A DNA stretch of 64,000 nucleotides from Actinomycetota bacterium. GTDB lineage: Bacteria > Actinomycetota > Actinomycetes > Streptosporangiales > Streptosporangiaceae. The DNA lies in assembly GCA_027314595.1 (NCBI GenBank), contig DAHVAN010000356.1:1-64000 (forward strand), given 5' to 3'. Shown here in pieces: positions 12,068 to 28,751 of the stretch. The stretch's first letter is position 1; each line of letters starts with the position of its first letter. The position numbers were made by a program, and so were the translations under genes. The notes under the pieces were generated by a model. The model had not been told where the DNA came from. It saw nothing but the letters and a program-made list of their open reading frames with translations, and searched no databases.

Positions 12068-13192
12068 CTAGCGGAGCGCCGCCGCCGGAGGATTGACAAT
12101 CCAGCCGCGGCGTTCCGCGGCCAGCTGGCTGACAAGGCTGGCAGAGCCATGTTCCTTGGCAATCAGCCGGGACCGTTCGGAAATCGGAATTATCCAAAGC
12201 CACCTGACAGGGTCATCGTCCACCGAGAAACCCGACAGATCGGGCGCCGCGGGCCCGGGGAGCGCGGACGGGTCCTGCAGGAGCAGCACGCCCTCGTAGC
12301 CGCCGCCGAGCGGGAAGTTCGCCGCCCGGTCGTACCACCGGACGCTGTGGCCGGGGCCGAACCAGGTCACCGCGCGCCAGGGGTATCCGGCCAGCCACAA
12401 GAAGACCAGGGCCGCCACCCCGGACGGCAGCGTCGTCGCGACGGCGAGCTCGACCCTGGAGTACCCGGCGGGATCGTCGACGACCTGCTCGACCATGGGC
12501 ATCCGCTGCGCGCTCATGCCAACCGTGGACAGCACCGTGTACGGCCGGCCCGAGGACGGCGGGCGCTCGGAGATCCCGATCGCCGGGCGCCTGCCCTGCG
12601 CGCCGTCCCAGTAATGGGCGCCCGGGCCGAGCCGCGAGGTCAGGTGCGCGAGCGCCGCCTGCTGGAACTTGGCCCAGCCTGCGGTGGAGTTGCGCCACCG
12701 CCAGAACTGGCCCGCGCGCTCCACCCGGGGGCCGAGCCCCTCGATGGCGTCGTCGAGCGACCAGGCGAACGGCGTCTGGCCGATCACGTCGCGGCTGTAC
12801 CCGGGCATGCCGCGGCCGGAGTTGGCCCAGCCAGGGATGACGGCGAGCAGGGTGCCGCGCTCCAGCAGCGCCACGCCGTCGCCTTCCTCGAACCACAGCG
12901 CCTGCAGCGTGTCCGGGTCGAACGGCGGCCGGCCGCGCGGATGCCGGGTGCGGACGGCGGGCATAAGCGGCGCCTGGCCCGCGTTGATCCTGGCGGAATC
13001 GCTGGTGCGCGGGGCGCGAACGTGGTTGGCTATCCAGGTGGCGGCGATCGTCGTGGTCTCGTCGTACAGGTACGCAGCCGTGGTTGTGCCGTCGAACTCC
13101 ACCGTCAGCCGCCGGCTCCCGTAGGGGCTCACGCTGTCGAGCAGCGTGGCCGGCTGCGGGAACGGCTCGGGACCGGACCGCATTATTGCCAT
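12068..13192 (-). CDS. Suppressor-of-fused (SUFU)-like domain protein
   Basis: 374 aa; RPYTVLSTVGMSAQRMP...VELAVATTLPS...VRWLWIIPISERSRLIAKEHGS resembles bacterial SUFU domains. Confidence 0.55.
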   Translation of the reverse strand: MAIMRSGPEPFPQPATLLDSVSPYGSRRLTVEFDGTTTAAYLYDETTTIAATWIANHVRAPRTSDSARINAGQAPLMPAVRTRHPRGRPPFDPDTLQALWFEEGDGVALLERGTLLAVIPGWANSGRGMPGYSRDVIGQTPFAWSLDDAIEGLGPRVERAGQFWRWRNSTAGWAKFQQAALAHLTSRLGPGAHYWDGAQGRRPAIGISERPPSSGRPYTVLSTVGMSAQRMPMVEQVVDDPAGYSRVELAVATTLPSGVAALVFLWLAGYPWRAVTWFGPGHSVRWYDRAANFPLGGGYEGVLLLQDPSALPGPAAPDLSGFSVDDDPVRWLWIIPISERSRLIAKEHGSASLVSQLAAERRGWIVNPPAAALR

Positions 13193-13321
13193 AATCCTTA
13201 ATATCGTCCTGTTTGCCCTCCGTGATCAAGTCCTTGCGCTTAGGTAATATCGGTGGGTCGATCCCCTTCGGGGGTCCGGGGGTCGCCCCCCGGGTGTGCG
13301 CAGTCCCCGAACGGAGCCGCC

Positions 13322-14440
13322 GTGTCTGGTCCACCTCGCCATCTCGCCGATCTCGGCCTGGCGGAGCGGCGGCAGGCAGTCGCCGACCTGGGAGAGCGCG
13401 AATTCCGCGCCGACCAGCTGTCACGGCACTACTTCGGCAGGCACACCGACTCGGCGCAGGACATGACCGACCTGCCCGCCGCGGTGCGTTCTGCGCTGGC
13501 CGCGGCGCTGCTGCCCCCCTTGCTCACGCAGCAGCGGTCGTTCGCCTGCGACAAGGGCGCGACGCGCAAGACGCTGTGGCGCCTGCACGACGGCGCGCTC
13601 GTCGAATCGGTGCTGATGAAGTACCCGGACCGGGTGACCATGTGCGTGTCGTCGCAGGCTGGCTGCGGGATGGGCTGCCCGTTCTGCGCGACGGGCCAGG
13701 CCGGCCTGACCCGCAACCTGTCCACCGCCGAGATCGTCGCCCAGGTGGTAGCGGGCGAACGCGCCCTGCCCGCCGCCGCCGCCCCGGGCCCCGCGCCCGG
13801 CCGCCTCTGCACCGGGAACCCCGCCCACGGCCGCGTCTCGAACGTCGTCTTCATGGGCATGGGGGAGCCGCTGGCGAACTACCGGAACGTGATCGGGGCG
13901 GTCCGCCGGCTGACCGACCCCGTGCCCGCCGGCCTGGGAATCTCACAGCGTTCGGTCACCGTGTCCACCGTCGGTCTCGTCCCGGCGATCAACCGCCTGG
14001 CCTCGGAAGGCCTGTCGGTCACGCTCGCGGTCTCTCTTCACGCGCCGGACGACGAGGCGCGTGACGGGCTCGTCCCGGTCAACCGCCGCTGGAAGGTCGC
14101 CGAGGTGCTGTCGGCCGCGTGGGACTACGCGGCCGCCACCGGGAGGCGGATCTCGATCGAATACGCGCTCATCAGGGACGTCAACGACCAGCCGTGGCGG
14201 GCCGACCTGCTCGGTTCGCTGCTCGCCGGGCACTTGGCGCACGTGAACCTCATCCCGCTCAACCCGACGCCAGGCTCGAAGTGGACCGCCTCGCTGCCGG
14301 GCGCGCAGGACGAGTTCGTCAGCCGCGTCGCCGCCCACGGCGTGGCCGTGACCGTGCGGGACACCCGGGGCCGTGAGATCGACGGCGCCTGCGGCCAGCT
14401 AGCCGCGTTGAACTCGCCGAACGCGCCGAAGGGCCGCTAA
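13322..14440 (+). CDS. rlmN: 23S rRNA (adenine(2503)-C2)-methyltransferase RlmN
   Basis: [22 protein letters not shown] radical SAM motif; GTG start at 13322. Confidence 0.93.
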
Positions 14441-14489: not shown

Positions 14490-14900
14490 GTGAAGTGGTG
14501 GAAGCGGCTGAAGTTGCGGGCCGGGCGAGCACGGCGGGCGCTGCTATGGCGGGCCGTGCACTGGGGATGGCGGGAGTTCCAGCGGGCCGGCCTGATCACC
14601 GGGGACACGCCGGCGGGGCGGGCCTACCGGGAGTTCGGCCGGGGCTCGGTGATGGCGTTTCCGCCCGGGTCCGTGTTCGGCGAGGGCTGGATCGCGGTCG
14701 GCGAGGACACGCTGATCGCCGCGCAAGTGACCATGTCGGCCGGCATCATGCCCGGTCAGGATCTGGGTCCGGACCCGGTGCTGCGAATCGGCGACCGCTG
14801 CGTGATCGGGCGCGGCAGCCATATCGTCGCGCATGAAAGCGTCGAGATCGGCGATGACGTGTGGACCGGGCCGTACGTGTACATCCCTGAGCATTCGTAG
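14490..14900 (+). pseudogene. 5' part of interrupted hexapeptide-repeat acyltransferase (remainder at 26500-26766)
   Basis: Ends ...EIGDDVWTGPYVYI then PEHS* from element DNA; joined at TC (14884-14885 / 26498-26499) to TDQNHGYTDPDTPIG in frame. Confidence 0.92.
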
Positions 14901-14912
14901 ACGTAGGCTACT
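14884..14912. other. attL: core TC (14884-14885) plus inner arm ATTCGTAGACGTAGGCTACT (14893-14912)
   Basis: Reverse complement of the arm matches the arm at 26471-26490 in 19/20 positions; both 7 bp from the core. Confidence 0.87.
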
Positions 14913-14915
14913 CCC

Positions 14916-16580
14916 ATGGGTACCGAGCGGCGCGGCAGCGCAGGGCAGACGGGTCTCCGTTGGGGCGGGGACGTGCGCATCTCTGAGGACGAGTGGGTCA
15001 AGGACCCGAAGACGGGCGAGATGCGCCTGTCCGAGAAGGGCATTACCCGGCAGGAAGAGGACATAACCGCACTGGTCGGCCGGCTTGGCGGGGAAGTCGC
15101 CAAGTGGTACCCGGAAAACGACACGTCGGCGTACAAGAAGCGGCGTATCCGGCTTCCGAACGGGCGTAGCGTGTGGCGGGTTTACCGCCCGGAATTCCGG
15201 CGCATGCTCGCCGATTACGAAGACGGGAAGATAGACGGGATCATCTTCTACGACATTGACCGTCTCGCCCGTCAGCCGCGCGACCTGGAAGACCTGATAG
15301 ACCTAGTCGAGTACTACAAGCGTCCCGTTGAAACGGTGACCGGAAATATCGACTTGCGCACATCCAATGGTCGCGCGATGGCGCGCGTGCTGGTGGCGAT
15401 GGCGAACAAGTCTAGCGAGGACACCGCGCGGCGCGTGGCACGCGCCAAGCTCCAAATTGCGCAGGAGGGAAACGGCAGCCGTTTCACGGGAAGCCGCCGG
15501 CGTTTCGGCTACCGGGAAGACGGAACCCTGAATGAGGCGGAAGCGGTGCTTATCCGTGACGCGGCACAAAGGTTCATGGCTGGCGAGTCGTGGAACGGTA
15601 TTGCCAAGCATTTCCGCGCTTCGGGAATCCGGCCGGTCTACGCGAATGTCTGGTCAATGACGTCTATACGTCAGGTTCTTCTGTCTCCCTCTACCGCAGG
15701 TATCGCGGTGTATAATGGTTCGCTGCGCGAGGAAAACAAGACGGGCCGTCCGAAAAACCTCTACTCCGACCCTGAAGCCGTCGCGCTGAAAGACGCGGCT
15801 GGCCGGTACCTGATGGGAAACTGGAAGCCGGTTCTGTCAGTTGACGAGTGGAAAGCACTCGTAGCGGAATCGGAGGCGAGGAGGAAAGGGCAGACATTCA
15901 GTGCCAGGGGAACGCGGAAATACCTATTGACCGGGCTCTTGCGGTGCGGGCGCGTACACGACAACGGCGTTGTATGCAACCGGTCTATGGCCGGCTTCAA
16001 ATACACCAATAAAGCCGGCACGGTTTGTTACGGTTACCGGTGCCCAGACAAGATAAAAGGCGGCTGCGGCGGTCTCCAGCGAAGCATGCCGAAACTCGAC
16101 AAACTCATAGAAGACCTGCTTTTCGCGCACCTCGCGGAAAACGCGCCGGACAGCATGCAGGAAAACGACGGGGCAGGCGAAACCGATGCTGACGCTATCC
16201 AGCTAGCCGAAACACAGGAAAGCATACGCAAGCTCCGGATGGGATATGCGGCGGTTCCCCGGACGGTCAGCGATGACACGATGTTCAGCGTGCTGCCGCA
16301 ACTGGAAGCCACCGAACGCGACCTGAAGGCAAAGCTGCGGAAAAAGGCCAAGGTACGTATGGGCCGGGTTTCCCTTGCAAAGAGGCCGGAAGAAGTACGC
16401 CGCGAATGGGACGAGGCCGATGATAACTTGGTGCGCCGCGCGATTCTTTCCCGCTACCTGAAAGCGGTTATTATCTGCAAGACAGATCGACGTGGTCCGG
16501 GAGCCCTGGATTATGCCGCGATCGAGCCGGTATGGCGCGAAGACGGGGAATACGCGCCACTTGATCACGTGATTTACTAG
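14916..16580 (+). CDS. int: Large serine recombinase/integrase
   Basis: 554 aa; VRISEDE catalytic Ser motif, GIIFYDIDRLARQPRDLEDLID, recombinase domain, zinc-ribbon CGRVHDNGVVCNR...YRCPDKIKGGCGG. Confidence 0.93.
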   Translation: MGTERRGSAGQTGLRWGGDVRISEDEWVKDPKTGEMRLSEKGITRQEEDITALVGRLGGEVAKWYPENDTSAYKKRRIRLPNGRSVWRVYRPEFRRMLADYEDGKIDGIIFYDIDRLARQPRDLEDLIDLVEYYKRPVETVTGNIDLRTSNGRAMARVLVAMANKSSEDTARRVARAKLQIAQEGNGSRFTGSRRRFGYREDGTLNEAEAVLIRDAAQRFMAGESWNGIAKHFRASGIRPVYANVWSMTSIRQVLLSPSTAGIAVYNGSLREENKTGRPKNLYSDPEAVALKDAAGRYLMGNWKPVLSVDEWKALVAESEARRKGQTFSARGTRKYLLTGLLRCGRVHDNGVVCNRSMAGFKYTNKAGTVCYGYRCPDKIKGGCGGLQRSMPKLDKLIEDLLFAHLAENAPDSMQENDGAGETDADAIQLAETQESIRKLRMGYAAVPRTVSDDTMFSVLPQLEATERDLKAKLRKKAKVRMGRVSLAKRPEEVRREWDEADDNLVRRAILSRYLKAVIICKTDRRGPGALDYAAIEPVWREDGEYAPLDHVIY

Positions 16581-16847
16581 CAGCGAAAGCGAAAGGGTGC
16601 GGCTCCGCCGCCAGATTTACGGCATTTCGCCCTGACCAGCCAACATCCGCAGAACTCAGCATCCTCCGACTGGCCTGGGAAGACGCAATGCCCGTCGCCG
16701 CCTAAACCCCGAAAGTCGCGTGAGATAACCAAGAACCTACGAGAAGGAGCCCTTCACGTGTTAACCCACAGCCGCGAACCGGACACACGGGCATCAAGGC
16801 ACCGAAAGGGCCTCGCGCTGCGTCACCCTGGAAGAGCCGCACCCAAA

Positions 16848-16887
16848 GCGAAAGACGCCGGCCGCGCATGCGGTCGGCGTCTTTCGC
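16848..16887. terminator. Long hairpin, probable bidirectional terminator
   Basis: GCGAAAGACGCCGGCCGC gcat GCGGTCGGCGTCTTTCGC: 17/18-bp stem, 4-nt loop, between convergent int and tra operon. Confidence 0.75.
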
Positions 16888-16891
16888 GTGT

Positions 16892-17164
16892 TCAGGATTC
16901 CTTTTCCTCGTCTTGGTCGTCATCACGGATTTCCTGGTTTCCGTAGTGCAGTAGCAAGAGCATGTCAGCCCATTGCCGTTGCGTGATTTTGGGTGCGCGT
17001 GCGACGTGATAAGCGATCCACTGTTCACGGGTCATCGGCTCTTCGGCCGCCGGCGTGCTGTCGTCGTCGTCGTGCGGGGGGTCGCGTCCCTTCGTCCCTT
17101 CGTCCCTGTCCCTCCCGTTACGTGCAGACGCGCGCGAGGGAGGGACGAAGGGACGATCACTCAT
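16892..17164 (-). CDS. Small protein of transfer operon, unknown function
   Basis: ATG at 17164 overlaps FtsK stop; EEPMTREQWIAYHVARAPKITQRQWADMLLLL. Confidence 0.6.
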   Translation of the reverse strand: MSDRPFVPPSRASARNGRDRDEGTKGRDPPHDDDDSTPAAEEPMTREQWIAYHVARAPKITQRQWADMLLLLHYGNQEIRDDDQDEEKES

Positions 17165-18936
17165 GGTGACTCCCGGGCGCGCCACCGGCCACGGCTGACC
17201 TGGTAGGCGCGGCCCTCGCCGGCGAGGTTCTGAAGGTAGCGGTAAAGCGGAGACCGGCTCATTCCGGTAATCCTCATGAGGTCTCCGATTTCTAGCCCTT
17301 CTTCGGGTGCGCCGCGAAGTGCGGCCCATAGTGATTCCTCGGGTGACTGCTCCGACTTTCGGTCGTACGCCTGGGGCATCTCGGCAGCCGCGGCGATTAT
17401 CGCATTGCGGGATACCTGGTCAAGTCCGCGAGGTATTTGCGAGTGCAGTGCGGCCGTTCGGGCCACCATTTCATCCGTGACGAGGTAGGCGCGCGCCCGG
17501 CGGGGAATGTCGTGCTCGGGAGCGGAGACGAGGAACTTCCCGGGCGCGTTCAGCTTGTGCGCGTTCCATCCCGCGTTAAGCATGCCCTGACCGAGAACTA
17601 GATCCACGTCTCGCTGCTCCCGGACACGGAAGCATATTCGCAGGTCCATTTGCGACCGCACCGCGCCCTGTCCCATGACTTTCTGCGTCGGACGCTGTGT
17701 TGCCGCTATCAGGGTCACGGCAAGCGCACGACCGAGCCGCGCTATCTCGTCGGTGTAATGCATCGCTTCCGGCGCTTCCTCGGAGAGTTCCGCGTATTCG
17801 TCGATGATGATTATCAGCGCGGGCATTTCCGGGGTCGGTTCCCATGTTCGCCGGCCGATCGACGCCAGGTATTCCGCGCGTCCCTTAAGGATTGCCACCG
17901 CATCACGGAGCAATGCGGTTGCCTGGCCGGGAGTGGTGGCGAGCCGGTCTATGCATTCGGTCCACGGGCCGAGTTCCATTCCCCTTTTCAGGTCGATAGC
18001 CCAGATGATCACGTCCGGGCACGCGGTCAGGTTCCCCATGAGCACGTTTAGCCCGCCGCTCTTGCCGGAACCGGCGATGCCCCCTATCAGAGCGTGCCGG
18101 CGGAGGAATAGCAGTCGGCACGGCATCGCGTCCTCGAACGGGCCGAGTTCGGCCGGGTCGGTAATCGAGCCGATAGACGGCCCAGGCCACGGGATCGCAT
18201 CGGCGTGGGGGTCGGTGTCGAGTACCCGCAACTCGAACCTGTTCGCCCGGTCGTCGGGGGTCGGGTAGACCCGCACCGCGCCCCGGTACGTGCCAAGGCC
18301 TGACTCGATTGCCGGAATCCTGGCAATGACATCGGTGATGGTCTGCCCGCGTGCCAGGCGGAACCGTGCTCGCCATCCCCACACGTCCACGGTGGCGGAC
18401 ATGACCGCGCTGCCGGCCAGGCCGACCGCGCGGGCGATGTCCGGCCAGGCGGCCAGGGTCCGCTCAACGCGGACCCTGGCGCGCCGGCGACGGTGCGCCC
18501 ACCCCGGCACCGACAGGACCACCGCGCCAATGCCCAGGACGAGCGGCAGCGGCGGGGTGAGCGGGCCGAGCGCGGCGGCCAGGGCCAGCCACGCCCCGCC
18601 CGCGAGGATCACTGCGCCGGCATAAGCGCGCTCGGCAACCGGGCGCAGGCCGAACTTCGCGCCGAACGCCACTGCCGCCGCCGCGACGGCCAGCGCGGCG
18701 GCCAGGACCGGCACCGCCGCGGCGGGGAACGCGACGTGCGCCCACAGCCCGGCGCCGGCCAGCGCCGCCGCGACGTCGGCCGGGGCTAGCTCGGAGCGGT
18801 AACGCCACACCAGGCGGGCGAGAACCACGATGGCCAGTTCGGGCAGCGGGTCACCGGAGTTGACGACGATCAGGGGCTGCATGCCCGCGCGCCGCGCATG
18901 GCGGGCGTGACGGCGCATCTGCCGGTAGCCGCTCAC
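17161..18936 (-). CDS. FtsK/SpoIIIE-like DNA translocase (AICE Tra protein)
   Basis: Walker A GGIAGSGKSGG, Walker B ALIIIIDEYAEL, ATQRPTQKVMGQGAVRSQMDLRICFRV, C-terminal winged-helix; GTG start overlaps upstream stop. Confidence 0.9.
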   Translation of the reverse strand: MSGYRQMRRHARHARRAGMQPLIVVNSGDPLPELAIVVLARLVWRYRSELAPADVAAALAGAGLWAHVAFPAAAVPVLAAALAVAAAAVAFGAKFGLRPVAERAYAGAVILAGGAWLALAAALGPLTPPLPLVLGIGAVVLSVPGWAHRRRRARVRVERTLAAWPDIARAVGLAGSAVMSATVDVWGWRARFRLARGQTITDVIARIPAIESGLGTYRGAVRVYPTPDDRANRFELRVLDTDPHADAIPWPGPSIGSITDPAELGPFEDAMPCRLLFLRRHALIGGIAGSGKSGGLNVLMGNLTACPDVIIWAIDLKRGMELGPWTECIDRLATTPGQATALLRDAVAILKGRAEYLASIGRRTWEPTPEMPALIIIIDEYAELSEEAPEAMHYTDEIARLGRALAVTLIAATQRPTQKVMGQGAVRSQMDLRICFRVREQRDVDLVLGQGMLNAGWNAHKLNAPGKFLVSAPEHDIPRRARAYLVTDEMVARTAALHSQIPRGLDQVSRNAIIAAAAEMPQAYDRKSEQSPEESLWAALRGAPEEGLEIGDLMRITGMSRSPLYRYLQNLAGEGRAYQVSRGRWRARESP

Positions 18937-19262
18937 GATGCCCCCCGGTGGCCCTGGGAACGCTCCCGGCGGGCCTGCAACTCGTCGCGCAGGTAGTACA
19001 AGGAGTCCGGTTCCCCGTCCGCATGCGCGCCAATGGTGGCGCGCATGGCCGCGAGCAGGTTCGCCCGGTCCAGCCGCGCCGCCTCGAGTTCCGCGCGGGT
19101 CCGCTGTAGTTCCGCGAGCACGGCCGGCACGTCGGCTAGCGCCGAGTCCACGAACCCGAACACGCCCGCCAGCGTGGGCGCGGCGGAGGCGAACCCGGCG
19201 ATGATGTCGCGTGCGATGTCGTTGCGGGTGGTGATCTCGGCATAGCTGTTGCTGGTCATCAT
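18933..19262 (-). CDS. Small coiled-coil protein of transfer operon
   Basis: 109 aa; 4-bp overlaps with both neighbours. Confidence 0.65.
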   Translation of the reverse strand: MMTSNSYAEITTRNDIARDIIAGFASAAPTLAGVFGFVDSALADVPAVLAELQRTRAELEAARLDRANLLAAMRATIGAHADGEPDSLYYLRDELQARRERSQGHRGAS

Positions 19263-20224
19263 CGTGCGCCCTCCTGCCTGCCGGCGACGGCCCGGGCGAG
19301 TCGGCCGGCGGCCAGCCGCGCGAAGTCCGGCGAGATGTCGATGCCGGTAAACCGTCGGCCCAGCTGGATCGCGGCCAGTCCTGTCGTGCCGCTGCCCGCG
19401 AACGGGTCAAGGACGGTCCCGCTGGGCTTGCACCCGGCGGCGATGCACCGAAGCGGCAGGTCGATCGGGTAGGCGGCGAAGTGCGGCCCGTTGTAGGGGC
19501 GGGTGGAGATAGACCACACGTCGCCGGGGTTGCGCCCGTTCGGGTGCCCGCGTCCGTCACGGCCTGTCCCGTAGCGGCGGGCCGTGACAACCTCGGGCGT
19601 GCCCGGCCCGTACTTCGGCGGTCGGACAGGTCCCTCAGCGTGCCCCGGCGGACGGGTCCGCCGGGCGCGCCCTGGGCTGTCCGCGTGGGGAACGCGGATG
19701 GGGTCTAGGTTGAACCAGTAGGCGGGCTGCTTGACGAGCAGAAACAGCAGCTCGTGCCGGCATGAAAGCCGGTCGCGCACCGATTCGGGCATCGCGTTGG
19801 GCTTGTGCCACACGATCGCGTTCCGCAGAATCCAGCCGTCCTCTTGCAGTGCGAACGCGACCCGCCACGGGAGGCCGAGCAGGTTCTTCGCGCTCAGCCC
19901 GGCCGCCCGGTGCGTGGTGATGTGCCGGCCCAGGTAGGCGTGCAGCCCGGTGGCCCCGCCGCCGCTGGCCGAGTAGGAGTCGCCGAGGTTGAGCCAGCAC
20001 GTCCCGTCACCGGCGAGCACGCGTCGCGCCTCGCTGAAAACGCCCCGCATCGTTTCCACGTACGCGGCGGGGGTTTCCTCGTGGCCGTACTGTGCGGGGA
20101 TGCCGTAGTCCCGCTTGCCCCAGTAGGGCGGGCTGGTCACGATGCAGTCGGCCGACTCGGCGGGCATCATCGCGAGCACCGCGCGGGCATCGCCAACATG
20201 CAGCGCGAACGGTGCGGCGCTCAC
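19259..20224 (-). CDS. Site-specific DNA methyltransferase (beta-class, m4C/m6A)
   Basis: DCIVTSPPYWGKRDYG (motif IV) and VLDPFAGSGTTGLAAIQLGRRFTGIDIS (motif I). Confidence 0.92.
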   Translation of the reverse strand: MSAAPFALHVGDARAVLAMMPAESADCIVTSPPYWGKRDYGIPAQYGHEETPAAYVETMRGVFSEARRVLAGDGTCWLNLGDSYSASGGGATGLHAYLGRHITTHRAAGLSAKNLLGLPWRVAFALQEDGWILRNAIVWHKPNAMPESVRDRLSCRHELLFLLVKQPAYWFNLDPIRVPHADSPGRARRTRPPGHAEGPVRPPKYGPGTPEVVTARRYGTGRDGRGHPNGRNPGDVWSISTRPYNGPHFAAYPIDLPLRCIAAGCKPSGTVLDPFAGSGTTGLAAIQLGRRFTGIDISPDFARLAAGRLARAVAGRQEGAR

Positions 20225-20424
20225 CGGCCACCGCCGAACCAGTGACCGAACCAGTAGGTGATGGCGGCGATGACTTCGTTAATGTTTGGCGCTGCCCCGG
20301 TTGCGGCGAGCAGGAACCCGAGGATGATGCACACCACGGCGTGCCAGAGCCGTAGCCCCATATGCCGGTATGCGATCCAGGCGACGAGGGCGAGAATGGC
20401 GATGAGGGGAATCGAGATAATCAT
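20221..20424 (-). CDS. Small membrane protein of transfer operon
   Basis: 67 aa from ATG 20424; MIISIPLIAILALVAWIAYRHMG...; overlaps MTase start. Confidence 0.6.
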   Translation of the reverse strand: MIISIPLIAILALVAWIAYRHMGLRLWHAVVCIILGFLLAATGAAPNINEVIAAITYWFGHWFGGGR

Positions 20425-20431
20425 TAGCGCA

Positions 20432-20587
20432 TCACTTCCTTCCGGTAACGCGGCGGGTCTGGCTTTTCCGTGACTGCCACTTCCTGCGTCGGCTCCAGCG
20501 GGCACGGCCCGTGCATTTCTGGCACCCGTATTCGGTGCAGTGGCGGACGACATAGGCGACGGCGATGATCTCGCTGGCGCGGCTCAT
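20432..20587 (-). CDS. 51-aa basic small protein (below ORF-track cut-off)
   Basis: MSRASEIIAVAYVVRHCTEYGCQKCTGRARWSRRRKWQSRKSQTRRVTGRK; ATGA overlap with upstream gene stop. Confidence 0.45.
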   Translation of the reverse strand: MSRASEIIAVAYVVRHCTEYGCQKCTGRARWSRRRKWQSRKSQTRRVTGRK

Positions 20588-20823
20588 ACGTTCGGCCGCC
20601 TCTTTTCGGGCGCGGATTCCTTTTCGGGCGCGGATTCTGCAGGCGGTGCGGGGTAGCGGACGCTGAGGAGAAGCCGGCGCGCGAATGCGTCTGAAGCCGA
20701 GCGGGGGCCACTTGCCAGGTGCCGGCGGTCGCCCCGCTGGATTCCGATGATCAGGACGGCGAGGGTCACGACCGCCGCAGCGGCTAGGACCCCCACGCCT
20801 GCAAGGACGAGGATCGGGGACAT
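20584..20823 (-). CDS. Small single-TM protein of transfer operon
   Basis: MSPILVLAGVGVLAAAAVVTLAVLIIGIQRGDRRHLASG. Confidence 0.6.
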   Translation of the reverse strand: MSPILVLAGVGVLAAAAVVTLAVLIIGIQRGDRRHLASGPRSASDAFARRLLLSVRYPAPPAESAPEKESAPEKRRPNV

Positions 20824-20827
20824 GCGC

Positions 20828-21124
20828 TTACTCGCTTCGCTCGTTGTCGTTCTTGTGCGGGATGGCGACCGCTCGGTATTCCACCGGGCCGAAGAGACGG
20901 ACGGCGACGTAGTGGCCGCCTCCGGAAAAGTGGGCGTTCACGCCGAGCCGTGCGGCGGTAGCGTCGATTTCGGCGCGCATTTGCGCCCAGTCGTCGGCCG
21001 CCGGGAATGTGTGCACGGCCGGATAGGCGGGGGCCGGAACTTCCGGGTTGGATTCCAGGTAATCGGCCAGGGTGCGGAGTCCGCTGATAAGCGCGGCCCG
21101 TTCGGTGGAATCGGCATGGTTCAT
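20828..21124 (-). CDS. Hypothetical protein, first gene of transfer operon
   Basis: 98 aa, co-oriented, 4-bp spacing to next gene. Confidence 0.6.
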   Translation of the reverse strand: MNHADSTERAALISGLRTLADYLESNPEVPAPAYPAVHTFPAADDWAQMRAEIDATAARLGVNAHFSGGGHYVAVRLFGPVEYRAVAIPHKNDNERSE

Positions 21125-21226
21125 CGGGCATCACCTCTTCGCGTTGACGCCGGTGCAGCTCTTCCGGCGGCTGGTATTTCCATGCCTGAATTCCATCGAA
21201 AATGCCGCACGGCTCCGAGGCGGTAG

Positions 21227-21270
21227 CAGGGCGGTACCAGGCCGGTTGCAGGCCGGTTGCAGGCCGGTTG
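21227..21270. repeat. Four 11-bp tandem units (iteron-like): one degenerate plus three perfect CAGGCCGGTTG
   Basis: CAGGGCGGTAC CAGGCCGGTTG CAGGCCGGTTG CAGGCCGGTTG, in the divergent intergenic region of the element. Confidence 0.8.
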
Positions 21271-21413
21271 GCCATTCCGGCTCGCTGAAATAAGCGCTTC
21301 ACAACGATTCGCGGGCGCTTTCTTAGGGGAAGCGCGTTAGTGTGTTCCGGATAATTACCGGCTACGCTGGCGAGGACGGCCGGCGGCGGTAGCGACCATG
21401 GAGGCGGTAGCCA

Positions 21414-23744
21414 GTGGAGATGGTGACCGGCTGGACCGGGCGGGAAGCGTGCGCGCTGCAAGCAGCGCTGCGGATGAGCAACGTGGCGTTCGCCGGCCGA
21501 CTGGGAATCGGGCTGAGCACGGTCAAGGACTGGCACGACAGGCCCAGCCTGCGGCCACGGCCGGAGACGCAGCGGATTCTAGACACCACCTGGGCGCAAG
21601 CGTCGGCAGCAGAGCGGGAACGGTTCGCCGCCCTTCTCGACCAGTCCACGCAGACGGACAATGCCAGCACCGGCGAAGACGGAACGGAGACGGCCGACGC
21701 TGCGAACAGGCCCGATCCCCGCTCGGTCTCGATCGGCGTCAACGCCGGCGTGATCAGTACCGGCGACGGAGCCGTGATCGACGCCCGCACGATCCATCTG
21801 CCGGCCGAGGCTGTTCGAATGCCCGCCGGGGTCGCGGCGGCACGCGGCCTACATAACCTGCCCGCGCCGCACAGCGCGGTTTTCGTCGACCGGCAGGAAG
21901 ACCTAGCGCAGCTGGATGCGGTCATGGCCGACGAGGCGGCAGTGGTCCCGCCCGTCGTGCACGGCCTAGGTGGAACCGGCAAGAGCACGCTTGCACTGCA
22001 CTACGCGCACCGCAACCGCGACCGCTACAACCCGGTGTGGTGGATTCCCGCCGATTCCCCGGTCAGCATTACCAGCGGTCTTGCCGAACTGGCCGCCCGC
22101 CTCGACCCCGTCCAGAACCTCACGGCCAAGAACAACGCCGAGGCGGCCGCGTGGGCGGTCAGCTGGCTACAGACGCATACCGGCTGGCTACTCGTCTTCG
22201 ATGATGCCGCCTCGCCGCGTGGCATCGAATCCGTGCTCGGGACACTCGCCGGCGGTCGGCACCTGATCACCAGTCGGCGCGCAACGGGATGGCACCGCGT
22301 CGCCAGTCTCATGCCGCTAGCCCCGCTTCCGCCCGCAGCAGCACTGGAAATGCTCATGCGAATCATCAACCCGGACCCCGATGACCCCAACCGGGAACTT
22401 TTGGAGAGCATCGCCGCTGAACTGGGGTATCTCCCGCTGGCCTTGGAACAGGCCGCCGCGTACATCCAGTACACGGCGATCGAGCCCGCAGCCTACCTCG
22501 ACCGGCTACGCCGCTTCCCTGCCCGCATGTTCGCCGTGTCCGCACCCGCGCAGGAAGCCGATGAATCCGCCAACCAACGAACAGTTGCCCGAATCTGGCA
22601 ACTCACCATGCAGGCGATCGAAGACGAGGAACCGCTAGCCGGGGAAATCCTCCGGACTCTGGCATGGTGGAGCCCGGACCCTATTCCCCGTGACCTGGCC
22701 TACGCGCTGCACGATGACCCCATCACGGTTGACGACGCGCTAGCCCTGCTGAACACCTACAGCATGATCAGCCTGACCGCGCAGTCAGTGACCATCCACC
22801 GGCTAGTGCAGGCAGTAGCGCGCATCCCCGACCCTGCCGACCCGCACCGCACGCCCGAGGCAATCACCAGCGCCCGCGTACGCGCCGCTGAAATCCTGCG
22901 GGGCGCGCTGCCGGAAAACCCCCTGTTCAACGTGCCCGGGTGGCCACGCTGGCGCGAACTAATCCCGCATGTCCTTGCCCTAGCGGACCTCACGCCCCCG
23001 GACGAGGACACCCCGGATACCGCCGCGATCCTTCTGGCAGCGTCCGGCTACTTGCAGGGCGACGGACTTAATGACGAGGCCGTGACCCTCGCGCGCCGCG
23101 CGGTTGGCGCCTACCGTCGGCTGCAAGGCCCCGACGCGCTAGACACCCTGGCCGCGCGCAGCTTCCTGGCCAGCGCCTACCGCGCCGCCGGCGACCTGGC
23201 CACCGCCGCGCCCCTGCACCAGCTGAACCTGACCGACTCCGAACGCGTTCTCGGTGCGGACCACCCCGAAACCCTGGTCGCGCGGGCCAACCTGGCCTAC
23301 CTCTACGCGCTACAGCACCGGGAGAATGACGCGCTAGAACTGCACGAACGCAACCTGGCCGACTACGAACGGGTACAGGGACCGGACCATCCCCACACGC
23401 TGAACGCCCGCGCTAACCTAGCCAGCTCTCACCGGGCCGTGGGCCATCTTGACCGGGCGATTGAGTTGCACGAACGGTCGGCGGCCGACTACGCCCGCGT
23501 CTTCGGTCCCGACCATTCCGAAACCATCACCGCGCGCAGCAACCTGGCCTACGCCTACCAGCTGGCCGGCGACCTCGCGCGAGCCATCCCGCTGCACAGG
23601 GAAGTCCTAGCCGATCGGGAACGGCTGTATGGACCGGACCACGCCTACACCGCCATAGCCCGACAGCTACTCACCAACGCCGAGCACCAGGCATCCGCAC
23701 ATGAGCCAGCGAACGGCCCGGACAACCGGCAGGCCGACGAATAG
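21414..23744 (+). CDS. STAND ATPase: N-terminal HTH-like region, NB-ARC domain, C-terminal TPR repeats
   Basis: 776 aa; VHGLGGTGKSTLALHYAHR P-loop, WLLVFDDA, LPLALEQAAAYI; TPR units ...ERVLGADHPETLVARANLAYLY... Confidence 0.85.
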   Translation: MEMVTGWTGREACALQAALRMSNVAFAGRLGIGLSTVKDWHDRPSLRPRPETQRILDTTWAQASAAERERFAALLDQSTQTDNASTGEDGTETADAANRPDPRSVSIGVNAGVISTGDGAVIDARTIHLPAEAVRMPAGVAAARGLHNLPAPHSAVFVDRQEDLAQLDAVMADEAAVVPPVVHGLGGTGKSTLALHYAHRNRDRYNPVWWIPADSPVSITSGLAELAARLDPVQNLTAKNNAEAAAWAVSWLQTHTGWLLVFDDAASPRGIESVLGTLAGGRHLITSRRATGWHRVASLMPLAPLPPAAALEMLMRIINPDPDDPNRELLESIAAELGYLPLALEQAAAYIQYTAIEPAAYLDRLRRFPARMFAVSAPAQEADESANQRTVARIWQLTMQAIEDEEPLAGEILRTLAWWSPDPIPRDLAYALHDDPITVDDALALLNTYSMISLTAQSVTIHRLVQAVARIPDPADPHRTPEAITSARVRAAEILRGALPENPLFNVPGWPRWRELIPHVLALADLTPPDEDTPDTAAILLAASGYLQGDGLNDEAVTLARRAVGAYRRLQGPDALDTLAARSFLASAYRAAGDLATAAPLHQLNLTDSERVLGADHPETLVARANLAYLYALQHRENDALELHERNLADYERVQGPDHPHTLNARANLASSHRAVGHLDRAIELHERSAADYARVFGPDHSETITARSNLAYAYQLAGDLARAIPLHREVLADRERLYGPDHAYTAIARQLLTNAEHQASAHEPANGPDNRQADE

Positions 23745-23765
23745 GAGCCAGCACCGGCCCCTTCC

Positions 23766-24026
23766 CTACCAGCGCTTCTTGATGATGGCCAGCAGGACCG
23801 GTTCGCCGTGCACGGTAACGGTCGTGCTCCATCTGCCGTGAGCAGTAAGCGAATGCTCGGCAGCCCCCGATTCGAACGCAGCGTTGACCGTCATGGCACT
23901 CCGTGCCACCGCTTCCGGGTCGTGCGCCGTGAGGCCGGTTATAGCCTCAGCGACAACAGACCGGGCATCCCGGAAGTTCTTCACCCGCACGGTCCTGCTG
24001 CCCACGCTGACCCTGTAGCTGCTCAC
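23766..24026 (-). CDS. Small protein of unknown function, convergent with STAND gene
   Basis: 86 aa, MSSYRVSVGSRTVRVKNFRDARSVVAEAI... Confidence 0.5.
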   Translation of the reverse strand: MSSYRVSVGSRTVRVKNFRDARSVVAEAITGLTAHDPEAVARSAMTVNAAFESGAAEHSLTAHGRWSTTVTVHGEPVLLAIIKKRW

Positions 24027-24256
24027 CCGGCTAACGCTAACGAGGAAGCCCCCCTGACCGCGCCCCCGCAGTCCGGTTGATTGCTCGCCCGCAGCCGTCA
24101 GCAGGCCAACTCCCCGTTCGCAGAGACCTGTTTTACTTCTCGTGTTTGCGTGTTAGACGGCGATAGCGTCGCAGGTCGGGGCTCCTGAACTGTTTTGTAG
24201 TGGCTGGTTCTGACCGAGGGTGTCGCATAACTGCAGCGCGGGGATATCCGTCTTAA

Positions 24257-24484
24257 ATCTGGATCCCACTTCGCGGACGCGAAGAACCAGCACGCCCGCC
24301 GCCACTCCCGGCCGATCCCGGCCGCCGCGGCCATCCCAGTCACCGTGCCCCGGTCCGCCAGGACCAGCCCGCACGCCAGCACCGTGAACAGCCGGAACGT
24401 CGAACGGCGCGCGAACACGGGGGCAAGCTCCTCCAGCAGCTCCCGCCACTCCCGCGGCATGGATAGGCTCTGGCCAGGCAGCAT
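24257..24484 (-). pseudogene. Truncated DDE transposase N-terminal fragment
   Basis: MPREWRELLEELAPVFARRSTFRLFTVLACGLVLADRGTVTGMAAAAGIGREWRRACWFFASAKWDPD, then unrelated sequence. Confidence 0.7.
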
Positions 24485-24634
24485 CGGCGGACACCCCCCG
24501 GTTACCGGTGACGTGATAGACACCGCCGATGCTGCCGTATCACACGCGCACCGCCAAATCACGTACACCCGACTGCCGTCTCGGTCGCTCGGCAAGCCTG
24601 CGCCCCTTACTCACCGCGAACTCGGAAACACGAG

Positions 24635-24808
24635 TTACTTGAGTCCGCCCACAAAGGCCTGCCAGGCTTCGACGCTGAATGTGAGCGTCGGCCCTTGACG
24701 GTCGGTGGTGTCGCGAACGGCCACGCCATCGGCGTTCGCCACCTCTATGCAGTTCTCGCCGCCGTTACTGTAGCTGGCTTTACGCCAGTTCAAATCTGTG
24801 CCTTCCAT
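24635..24808 (-). CDS. DUF397 domain protein (57 aa, below ORF-track cut-off)
   Basis: MEGTDLNWRKASYSNGGENCIEVANADGVAVRDTTDRQGPTLTFSVEAWQAFVGGLK. Confidence 0.9.
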   Translation of the reverse strand: MEGTDLNWRKASYSNGGENCIEVANADGVAVRDTTDRQGPTLTFSVEAWQAFVGGLK

Positions 24809-25563
24809 GTCTCCTCCTGCGTACGGAGAAATTCTAGTGACGCTACAGCGGGGAGCGACGCGCCTAGGATCACATCGAACAGGTTGAGGGTGTCGTCTAC
24901 CACGTCCGCCGCTGTGCTCGTCACGTCACGTATGGCGGTGGTGAGGCTCACGGTTGAGATGCCGTCTCTAGTGGCGATGCCGAATGCGCCGGCAAGCCCA
25001 ACGCTCGCGCCTTCCGGGACTACATGCAACCTGATTACCTGCGACTCCGCCCGTGCGGCCAGGTGCGCGCACTGCTCCGCCATGACCTGAGACGAGCCGA
25101 CGCGCCGCTGCAGCACCGTGTGATCGATGACCGCCGTAACCCGTGCATGTCCTAGGACTCGCTGACGTTCGAGTCGGGCCGCGACAATGTCGGCAGACTG
25201 CTCGTGAGCACGGGCGTATCCCTCGGTCTGAAGCAGGCCGGGAACTACTAGCGGTCCCCAGAACCGGAGGGTAGTCGCCTGAGCTTCAGCGGTCAGGTAT
25301 GGCATGAACCACTCCGGGGTGCCCGACTTGGCGCGCTGTGCTAGGTCCGTGAGCGTGTCGAGGGGTGCGCCCGTAGCCCCGGCCCATGCTGCTAGCACAG
25401 CGTCGGACGGTACGGGATGGGCGGGGTTTTCCGCCTTGCTGACGACCGGGCGCGACACGTTGAGCTTTTTCGCCAGCGAACCGTGGGACTCGAATCCGGC
25501 ATCGAATCGCGATTGCTTCAGGATCGTAGCTAGCTGTTCTCGCGGCGTAGGCACGGTGCGCAC
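24790..25563 (-). CDS. XRE-family HTH regulator with DUF5753
   Basis: HTH LAKKLNVSRPVVSKAE; WFMPYLTAEAQATTLRFWGPLVVPGLLQTEGYAR; overlaps DUF397 partner. Confidence 0.9.
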   Translation of the reverse strand: MRTVPTPREQLATILKQSRFDAGFESHGSLAKKLNVSRPVVSKAENPAHPVPSDAVLAAWAGATGAPLDTLTDLAQRAKSGTPEWFMPYLTAEAQATTLRFWGPLVVPGLLQTEGYARAHEQSADIVAARLERQRVLGHARVTAVIDHTVLQRRVGSSQVMAEQCAHLAARAESQVIRLHVVPEGASVGLAGAFGIATRDGISTVSLTTAIRDVTSTAADVVDDTLNLFDVILGASLPAVASLEFLRTQEETWKAQI

Positions 25564-25738
25564 CTTCCGTTACCGGCGTTCAAGAGTGGTCAGCATCGAG
25601 GAAACGTATATCCAATTCTAGCTCCGCATCGTGAGGATGGTCACACGCTCCGCCGTCGGCGGTTAACCGTCCGAATCAGTGCGGCGGCGGAGCGCGCCAG
25701 AGTGGCAAGGTCCGCCATCTTCAAACAAGGGAAAGGCA

Positions 25739-25909
25739 ATGAGCGATACGAAGACGCCAACCGAAGACTTCGCGGCGATGGATGATCCGACGTTCCTAGC
25801 CGAACGGAAGCGCGTACGGGAAGCTCTCGAAGAGCTTACAGAGCGCATGACCGAACTAGACAACGAGTTCATCAGGAGGGCGGGAATCGCGTGGACATCA
25901 GCCAGCTAG
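25739..25909 (+). CDS. Small acidic hypothetical protein
   Basis: MSDTKTPTEDFAAMDDPTFLAERKRVREALEELTERM; co-directional with GntR gene. Confidence 0.5.
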   Translation: MSDTKTPTEDFAAMDDPTFLAERKRVREALEELTERMTELDNEFIRRAGIAWTSAS

Positions 25910-26091
25910 GGATAGCGACACTGCCTTGCCTCCTGGCCGTCGAAGTGCTCTTGGCCGAACCTGAGGCGCTACAAGACGACGTCCTAGAAAGCTGCCTCTA
26001 CATCTTGCGTGACCGGCTGCGCGGGACGGAAGGCGAGGACGACGGCGGGGAAGACGTAGCAAGGTCTCATGACCCTTGCGAGGTCTCATGA
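25891..26091 (+). CDS. Small hypothetical protein
   Basis: 66 aa, GTG start, overlaps both neighbours. Confidence 0.45.
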   Translation: MDISQLGIATLPCLLAVEVLLAEPEALQDDVLESCLYILRDRLRGTEGEDDGGEDVARSHDPCEVS

Positions 26092-26096
26092 CCCTT
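26062..26096 (+). repeat. Direct repeat AGGTCTCATGACCCTT x2 (period 19) over the GntR start codon
   Basis: Perfect 16-bp copies at 26062-26077 and 26081-26096. Confidence 0.85.
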
Positions 26097-26444
26097 AAGC
26101 GTGAGCGCGTAGCCCGTGGCGTGCGGGCAGCGATCGAGCACGGCGAATACGCCGACGGGCAGCCCCTCATCCAGCAACGGCTGGCGTCCGAATACGGCGT
26201 GACCCGTGATGTGGTCTGGTGGGCGCTAGCTGACCTTGAGAAAGACGGATGGGTGTCGTTCACTAACAAGCGGTACCTGGTGAACGCCACCCATGTATCT
26301 CGCCAGTTGCAGCGGGTGCTGACCTTCGCTGAGCGCCTTGACCTCACGGAAAAGAAGCTTGACGCGCTGTGCCGGCACCTGCTGCCGGCATCAGGCAGGT
26401 ACGCACCCCCCGGTGTTCGCATGCATGCCGGTCCCGGGGCGTGA
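26088..26444 (+). CDS. GntR-like winged-helix regulator
   Basis: MTLKRERVARGVRAAIEHGEYADGQPLIQQRLASEYGVTRDVVWWALADLEKDGWV. Confidence 0.75.
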   Translation: MTLKRERVARGVRAAIEHGEYADGQPLIQQRLASEYGVTRDVVWWALADLEKDGWVSFTNKRYLVNATHVSRQLQRVLTFAERLDLTEKKLDALCRHLLPASGRYAPPGVRMHAGPGA

Positions 26445-26470
26445 GGCAACCCGCAGGTCAGAGGACTGCT

Positions 26471-26499
26471 AGTAGCCTACTTCTACGAATAACTTGCTC
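26471..26499. other. attR: inner arm AGTAGCCTACTTCTACGAAT (26471-26490) plus core TC (26498-26499)
   Basis: Mirror of attL; chromosomal side continues ACCGACCAGAAC in acyltransferase frame. Confidence 0.87.
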
Positions 26500-26766
26500 A
26501 CCGACCAGAACCACGGGTACACCGACCCCGACACGCCGATCGGCCGCCAGCTTCCGGTGAACCGCGCGGTCACGATCGGTGCGGGGTCGTGGCTGGGCGC
26601 CGGGGCGATCGTGCTGCCGGGTTCCCGGATCGGGCGCAACGTGGTGATCGCGGCCGGCTCGGTAGTACGCGGTGAGGTTCCCGACCGGTGCGTCGTCGCC
26701 GGCGTGCCGGCGAAGGTCGTCCGCGAGCACACCGAGGCTGGCTGGTCCCGCCCGGTGATCGTCTGA
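26500..26766 (+). pseudogene. 3' part of interrupted hexapeptide-repeat acyltransferase
   Basis: TDQNHGYTDPDTPIGRQLPVNRAVTIGAGSWLGAGAIVLPGSRIGRNVVIAAGSVVRGEVPDRCVVAGVPAKVV. Confidence 0.92.
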
Positions 26767-26804: not shown

Positions 26805-28751
26805 CTAGATGACATACCTGGTGGGGTAGGTGGTGTGGGTACGCCCTGATGGGGTGTGCCAGACCATGATGCCTGGTGCGGGCTGTTCGAGCCGCCAGCC
26901 GGGGGCCTGCTTGTTCCTGTGGTGGTACCTGCACGGGGCCCCGATGTTGCATTCGCAGCTTGGCCCGGTCGGCCAGGGGATGGTGTGGTCGGCGTCGGCG
27001 GTGGCGGAGGGTCGGTTGCAGCCGGGCGCGACGCATTTGGTGGCTCGGGCTTTGATGAGGTCCTTGACCTTGCGGCTGATGACGTACCGGTCGGAATAGT
27101 GGCGGTGGTCGCAGTGCCCTTGGGCGATCGGGGCGAGCTGGACCCGCAGCCGGCGGAGCAGCCCGGCGACCTGAGCCGCTTGTTCGGCGGTGGCGGGTGT
27201 GCCGGGCTGGCCTAGTGGTGCGGGCGGTGGCTGCCCGCCGTGGGGCGCCGGCCCGGGGGGTGGCCCGGGGGCCGGGTGCAAGCTGGCGCTGGTGGCGTCC
27301 GGGCTGGCGCTGGTGGCGTGCGGGCCTGGGGTCCAGGGGTGGCGGCCGGGTGCGCAGCCGTGGGCGGCGGCGGTGCCGTCGGGGCCGACCACGGTGACAC
27401 ACCAGCGGGTTTCGGGGTGGGCGGCCGCTGCCTGGGTGAGGTCCCGGGTGGTCTGCGGGTCAAGCAGCCCGAACCCGGGGATCTCCCCTGGTGCCGATGA
27501 CCAGCCCAGCAGCGTCCCGGCCGGGACCAGGAGGGTGATGGCGGCCTTGACCGTCGCCGTATGCCCCGCGCTGTCCTGCCGCCCGCTGTCCTGGCGCCCG
27601 CTGTCCTGGCCCGCCCTGTCCTGCCCGGCGCTCTCCTGCTCGGCGCTGTCTGCGGTGGTGAGGCGGGCGAGGGGGTCGCGGCCTTTGGTGAGGTCGAGGA
27701 AGACCAGTGCGCGCAACTGGTCCAGGGTGCCGGGCAGGCCGCCGGCGCGCAGGGCGCGGGCGCAGTCGTCGATGTGCTGGGAGGAGGCGAGCACGTCGGC
27801 GGGGGGCAGGTCCCGGCCGCACAGGGCGGCGTTGCCGGACTGTTCCTGGAACCGGATGACGCGGGCATGCTTTGCGGCGCTGTCCTTGCGGCGCTGCGCG
27901 GCGGCCGGGTCGATCATCATGACCACCCGGGTGCACATGCCGCGCAGCAGGCTGGGCGTCAGCGCCGCCGCGGCCGCTGCCAGCAGCAGGTCGGCCTCGG
28001 CGGCGCCGTCATCGGTCAGGCAGGCCGTGGCGTCGGTGATGATCTGCAGCTGGAACGCGCTGATCAGCCCGTCGTGGAGCAGCCGGCAGCAGGCGGGCAG
28101 CCGCCGGGCCGCGTCCCGGGCCCGGGCCATCGCCTCCTCGGCGGCCGCGTTCTTGATGACCAGTTCCGGGGCCAGCTCATCGGGGGCGAACGGGGTGAAC
28201 CCGTACGGGGTGGCCTTCTTCGGGCTGGGCTCGGCGCGGCGGGCGGCGAACTCGGCGACCGCGGCATGCTGTACCCACGCGCCCCGGGCGGCCAGCCGCC
28301 GTCCCGCGGCGGCCAGGCCCAGGACCTGGTTGTCGGTCAGCGCCTTCAGCACCTGCGGGTCGGCGGCCATCTCGGCGACCGCGGCCAGCACCGCGTCCGG
28401 CTCGCGGGTGTTCAGGGCGCCGCCCTTGGCGAACCCGGTCACGTCCACCTCGGCGGGGTCGGAGGTGCCCGCCAGGCTGAACCAGGTCTGCGGCATCGCG
28501 TCCGCCTCGCCGGGTATCGCGACCAGCCCGGCGTCGATGTCGGCGACCAGTCGCGCCATCTTCGCCGCCCCGTCCCACCCCGCGTCCGCATGCGCCGCAT
28601 CGGGGTCCGGGCCGCCGCCGCCGCTCTTGCCCTGGCCTGCGTCCGCGCTCTTGCCCGGGCCGGAGTGCGGGGGCCGGCCGTTCCCGGGCACGGGCGGGCG
28701 GGACGGCTGCCCGCCGTCTGCTCCGCTGCCGGGAACGGCTCCTGGGGACAT
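26805..28751 (-). CDS. DUF222 / HNH endonuclease (13E12 repeat family)
   Basis: C-terminal KCVAPGCNRPSATADADHTIPWPTGPSCECNIGAPCRYHHRNKQAPGW HNH motif. Confidence 0.88.
   Translation of the reverse strand: MSPGAVPGSGADGGQPSRPPVPGNGRPPHSGPGKSADAGQGKSGGGGPDPDAAHADAGWDGAAKMARLVADIDAGLVAIPGEADAMPQTWFSLAGTSDPAEVDVTGFAKGGALNTREPDAVLAAVAEMAADPQVLKALTDNQVLGLAAAGRRLAARGAWVQHAAVAEFAARRAEPSPKKATPYGFTPFAPDELAPELVIKNAAAEEAMARARDAARRLPACCRLLHDGLISAFQLQIITDATACLTDDGAAEADLLLAAAAAALTPSLLRGMCTRVVMMIDPAAAQRRKDSAAKHARVIRFQEQSGNAALCGRDLPPADVLASSQHIDDCARALRAGGLPGTLDQLRALVFLDLTKGRDPLARLTTADSAEQESAGQDRAGQDSGRQDSGRQDSAGHTATVKAAITLLVPAGTLLGWSSAPGEIPGFGLLDPQTTRDLTQAAAAHPETRWCVTVVGPDGTAAAHGCAPGRHPWTPGPHATSASPDATSASLHPAPGPPPGPAPHGGQPPPAPLGQPGTPATAEQAAQVAGLLRRLRVQLAPIAQGHCDHRHYSDRYVISRKVKDLIKARATKCVAPGCNRPSATADADHTIPWPTGPSCECNIGAPCRYHHRNKQAPGWRLEQPAPGIMVWHTPSGRTHTTYPTRYVI
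27575..27650. repeat. About 15-bp tandem repeats in DUF222/HNH gene
   Basis: CGCTGTCCTGGCGCCCGCTGTCCTGG...; encodes QESAGQDRAGQDSGRQDSGRQDSAG. Confidence 0.7.

Follow-up and report, generated by a model that had tools for sequence, protein, structure and literature searches.

An 11.6-kb serine-integrase element of TraB/FtsK type within a conserved acyltransferase gene of an uncultured Streptosporangiaceae bacterium: probable ordinary integration rather than a genetic switch

In one Streptosporangiaceae genome (Actinomycetota; GenBank assembly GCA_027314595.1), a host gene for a hexapeptide acyltransferase lies in two pieces with other DNA between them. This raises the questions of what separates the halves, whether the gene could be made whole again, and whether its interruption serves the host. 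The window analysed was a stretch of 64,000 nucleotides (positions 1 to 64,000 of contig DAHVAN010000356.1, forward strand); the host genome is a draft of 6.2 Mb in 488 contigs with 6.8% estimated contamination. A first-pass annotation made from the sequence alone had described an integrative element of roughly 11.6 kb that splits the gene, and had suggested that its integration and excision could act as a genetic switch. The first of these statements is supported, homologues of the gene being whole; the second is not.

The 5′ half of the gene starts with GTG at 14490 and ends in GPYVYI, after which the reading frame meets an element-derived stop after five codons (PEHS*; ORF end at 14900). 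The 3′ half, which opens with TDQNHGY, spans 26500 to 26766. The junction positions 14885 and 26500, as first annotated, were confirmed to the base, and translation of 14490-14885 joined to 26500-26766 gave one 220-aa ORF without a stop or a frame change. In G001, a genome of the same genus without the element at this site, the matches to 14885 and 26500 are neighbouring bases (3621/3622 of L030). Dozens of homologues continue uninterrupted across the junction, which excludes proteins of this kind naturally ending at GPYVYI. The two junctions have just the bases TC in common (14884-14885 and 26498-26499); the cut would therefore fall within or at the edges of this dinucleotide, and the element measures 11,614 bp (26498 − 14884). 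Site-specific excision between the two TC cores is thus predicted from the anatomy of the junctions to restore the 220-aa frame exactly, in agreement with the earlier claim.

Serine integrases characteristically use a 2-bp core within a symmetric attP and an attB of unlike sequence. Rejoining the ends of the element, right to left, gives AGTAGCCTACTTCTACGAATAACTTGC-TC-CCTGAGCATTCGTAGACGTAGGCTACT, a symmetric 27+2+27 attP around the central TC. As an inverted repeat, the two arms agree at 20/27 positions, compared with a random mean of 7.9 (sd 2.5). Since the maximum among 200,000 random arm pairs was 21 matches, the symmetry of the arms does not by itself amount to absolute proof; the recurrence of the structure in a second genome, G009, settles it. 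With the inverted repeat of the end arms and this recurrence, a chance origin of the junction structure is not plausible. The 2-bp core, the symmetric attP arms and an attB of different sequence were all found at this locus and again in G009; a 2-bp crossover has been described for Tn4451 (PMC5704250). The integrase gene adjoins the att site and its domains are in the usual order, the zinc-ribbon match lying slightly below its curated cut-off. The coordinates of the halves, att sites and element genes are collected in Table 1.

Table 1. Features of the split acyltransferase gene and of the inserted element, with window positions.
Feature	Position	Strand	Evidence
5′ half of the host hexapeptide acyltransferase gene, codons 1-132	14490..14885	+	Hexapep Pfam match; 220-aa join; homologues in relatives whole
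attL crossover dinucleotide TC, left end of element	14884..14885	.	Sole bases common to both junctions; TC also in G009
Right arm of attP, CCTGAGCATTCGTAGACGTAGGCTACT	14886..14912	.	Inverted repeat of the other end, 20/27; all 27 bases identical in G009
Large serine recombinase (integrase), 554 aa, intact-looking	14916..16580	+	Pfam Resolvase, Recombinase and Zn-ribbon in order; G009 copy at this site 94% identical
Small protein adjoining the translocase, without family match	16892..17329	-	Related element of G009 (C171) has a protein of similar length (160 aa) in the corresponding place
TraB-like FtsK/SpoIIIE DNA translocase, ~591 aa	17161..18936	-	FtsK_SpoIIIE; NCBIfam TraB; GTG start at 18936 inferred from the G009 homologue
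Small ORF, 109 aa, upstream of the translocase, without family match	18933..19262	-	Similar ORF in G009 C171
DNA N6/N4 methylase, orphan (without restriction partner)	19259..20224	-	Pfam N6_N4_Mtase 1e-52; PADLOC MTase_II 6e-90
FxSxx-COOH-system type NB-ARC/TPR protein	21414..23744	+	NCBIfam NF040586 (350 bits, cut-off 300); G009 element has a homologue
Helix-turn-helix / DUF5753 regulator	24790..25563	-	Pfam DUF5753 3e-34; different DUF5753-like gene at a like position in G009
Small GntR-type DNA-binding protein adjoining attR	26076..26444	+	Pfam GntR 8e-10
Left arm of attP, AGTAGCCTACTTCTACGAATAACTTGC	26471..26497	.	Inverted repeat of 14886-14912; similar in G009
attR crossover dinucleotide TC, right end of element	26498..26499	.	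Junction comparison; TC also in G009
3′ half of the host acyltransferase gene: predicted catalytic His137, later hexapeptide coils	26500..26766	+	Hexapep Pfam match; His aligned to maltose O-acetyltransferase

The second carrier, G009, is a Streptosporangiaceae MAG of another genus, in which the 94%-identical integrase immediately follows the same acyltransferase codon and both attL and attR have the same TC core. DNA identity between the two elements was 91% over the left 1.7 kb, against 77-79% for the host flanks, and the site is the same, which indicates that the element moves between hosts and does so site-specifically. The NB-ARC/TPR region is only ~73% identical between the two elements, their DUF5753-like genes are different, and the two contigs that carry the G009 element did not yield its middle part. 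The comparison fits a mosaic element that would move between hosts and return to one site. Across the sampled family genomes, the integrase was found at the acyltransferase site in 2/344, plus one decayed relative (63%) at another site in G001. Partial matches in G005 and G003 were not counted as occupied sites, as they run off contig ends, and a relative of the integrase in Streptacidiphilus carbonis (46%) is not located in the acyltransferase.

Beside the decayed relative in G001 (L037 2522-3795, C217) is the 3′ end of a different host gene, which by eye resembles a DUF5753-type regulator. The similarity of this relative starts at the first base of the present element, and since the sequence there begins TCCCTGA, the same core may be used there in a different target.

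Among the cargo genes, the translocase scored 3e-10 against PF01580 and 1e-47 against NCBIfam TraB, yet the latter score is below the curated cut-off. Its best relative in G009 was considered as the missing part of the split-gene element and rejected, because it belongs to another integrative element (C171, L044 1-7400) with its own, different serine recombinase of 511 aa. That element encodes the TraB-like protein at 68% identity and similar small neighbours, so the transfer module recurs with different integrases. No direct repeats of the TraB-binding (clt) type were found between the integrase and translocase genes. From its position only, the GntR-type protein is a candidate regulator or excision factor. 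Two tandem 19-bp copies of GCAAGGTCTCATGACCCTT (26059-26096) lie at the start of its gene and could be an operator. Weak DDE-transposase similarity (E 0.027) was seen at 24098-24595, possibly a transposase remnant within the element.

Taken together, the inserted DNA is very probably an integrative element of the actinobacterial TraB/FtsK type that was integrated by its own large serine recombinase. The integrase would recombine attP with an attB of ~46 bp centred on acyltransferase codons 132-133 (TACA-TC-ACCG), in a single orientation and with TC as the crossover point. Transfer of the circular form, in double-stranded state, would rely on the TraB-like translocase, either unaided or with the help of another element, and excision would regenerate the whole acyltransferase gene. 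The best reading is an ordinary AICE-like or mobilizable integrative element with a conserved gene as its predicted attB.

According to Ghinet and colleagues (PMC3218068), an AICE combines an integrase (tyrosine, or serine in ~14%) with Tra and Rep functions. The present element has the integrase and the FtsK/SpoIIIE (Tra) translocase, and no replication gene (RepSA, RepAM or Prim-Pol) was recognised among the element ORFs scanned with Pfam and NCBIfam, which makes self-transfer as a complete AICE doubtful. From its gene content, the element does not appear to be a complete AICE and fits the 'remnant or mobilizable' group of that study. A close parallel in its anatomy is Faln2929 of Frankia alni (PMC3218068), an actinobacterial AICE that likewise has a serine recombinase and an FtsK/TraB-type translocase and disrupts a protein-coding gene. 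The target of Faln2929 is a putative endonuclease whereas here it is a hexapeptide acyltransferase, no Rep gene was recognised in the present element, and excision was detected by PCR for Faln2929, although no recombination directionality factor (RDF) was identified there, whereas it is predicted from sequence here. The streptococcal rumA IMEs (PMC5704250) share a site-specific serine integrase, a very short common att sequence and a position within a conserved gene; however, these mobilizable elements are found in Firmicutes and use relaxase-based single-strand transfer, in contrast to the TraB-like double-strand DNA translocase encoded here.

The acyltransferase gene itself was matched in 337/344 sampled family genomes, and in 284 of the 286 better ones. 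Among the matches listed, only G000, G005 and G009 had two matches per genome, those of G005 being overlapping copies of which one runs off the contig end. The attB window ranked 18 of 528 46-bp windows for conservation, with the most conserved one beginning 3 bases from it. The attB window encodes YVYITDQNHGY, including His137, which aligned with the catalytic histidine of maltose O-acetyltransferases. By these alignments, the insertion site falls in a strongly conserved part of the gene, which surrounds the codon for the predicted catalytic histidine. Neither half should be active, with residues 1-132 parted from the predicted catalytic His137 and the later coils. As the split separates the N-terminal portion from this histidine and no close second copy was found in the genome, the acyltransferase is likely lost while the element is integrated. 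Among named NCBI families, the WbbJ-type polysaccharide O-acetyltransferase scored best, though far short of its cut-off. A search of the literature found no hexapeptide acyltransferase reported to serve as attB, most subscription papers lying outside that search.

Two features of the neighbourhood were recorded. Downstream, a DUF222 gene with, by eye, an HNH-type C-terminus (26805-28751) lies between the acyltransferase and a response regulator; the G001 region lacks a DNA match to it, and the acyltransferase of G009 is closely followed by the response regulator, so this DUF222 gene looks like a separate local insertion. Upstream, a SUFU-domain protein (12068-13192) adjoins an rlmN-like gene (13253-14440), an order also seen in G005.

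The alternative that survives best, though improbable, is that the host or the element controls excision, so that a near-core and possibly surface-sugar acyltransferase is off when the element is integrated and on afterwards, in the manner of SPbeta/spsM or skin/sigK. If true, the co-opted element would be an actinobacterial counterpart, in uncultured Streptosporangiaceae, of SPbeta in spsM of Bacillus subtilis (PMC4191935), which also uses a large serine recombinase, inserts into a polysaccharide-synthesis gene and restores it exactly on excision. SPbeta, however, is a prophage with the excision factor SprB, sporulation-timed excision and a reported core of 16 bp, whereas the present element has a core of 2 bp and its excision control is hypothetical. 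No RDF or developmental control was recognised among the element genes, serine-integrase RDFs being too diverse to exclude one, and neither an excised form of the element, an emptied site nor regulated excision was found. The suggestion of a switch was built on exact restoration of the reading frame, yet any attB within an ORF gives this automatically, recombination being conservative. Nearly all family genomes have the gene, there is no close backup copy here, both halves are undecayed in either carrier, and the terminal tree branch of the protein is not long; but the same facts are explained by a recent insertion, after which undecayed halves are equally expected. Against a switch, only 2/344 family genomes carry the element, with differing cargo and signs of recent horizontal transfer, and its behaviour is that of a horizontally mobile rather than a domesticated element. 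Under ordinary integration, the excision-reversible disruption of the target would be a by-product of using conserved coding sequence as attB and not evidence of host regulation.

A serine-integrase prophage or prophage remnant, in place of a conjugative-type element, is less probable still. Related serine integrases do occur in Streptomyces and Mycobacterium phages (26-31% identity among the best-ranked matches), but none of the element's genes was recognised as structural, packaging or lysis (no Pfam matches to capsid, terminase or lysis genes among the element ORFs) and the element encodes a TraB/FtsK translocase. Viral contigs contained neither a relative of the integrase nor a match to attP, and the phage and plasmid collections yielded distant integrases only, all below 60% identity. 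An assembly artefact, in which a chimeric MAG contig joins unrelated DNA inside the gene, is the least credible explanation by far: fragmentation and contamination of the draft would allow it, but the junctions have matched att arms with a TC core and both recur in a separate assembly from another genus.

As an integrative element of the TraB/FtsK type, the present case follows an ordinary mechanism and leaves knowledge of such elements unchanged; a gene-disrupting, excising AICE with a serine recombinase was already known from Frankia (Faln2929, PMC3218068). It provides a cleanly delimited serine-integrase system of an uncultured lineage, with predicted attP, attB and crossover dinucleotide and two separate carriers, which may offer a new integration tool for rare actinobacteria. 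It also illustrates how integrases would choose highly conserved coding DNA around a catalytic residue, a target that persists across genera.
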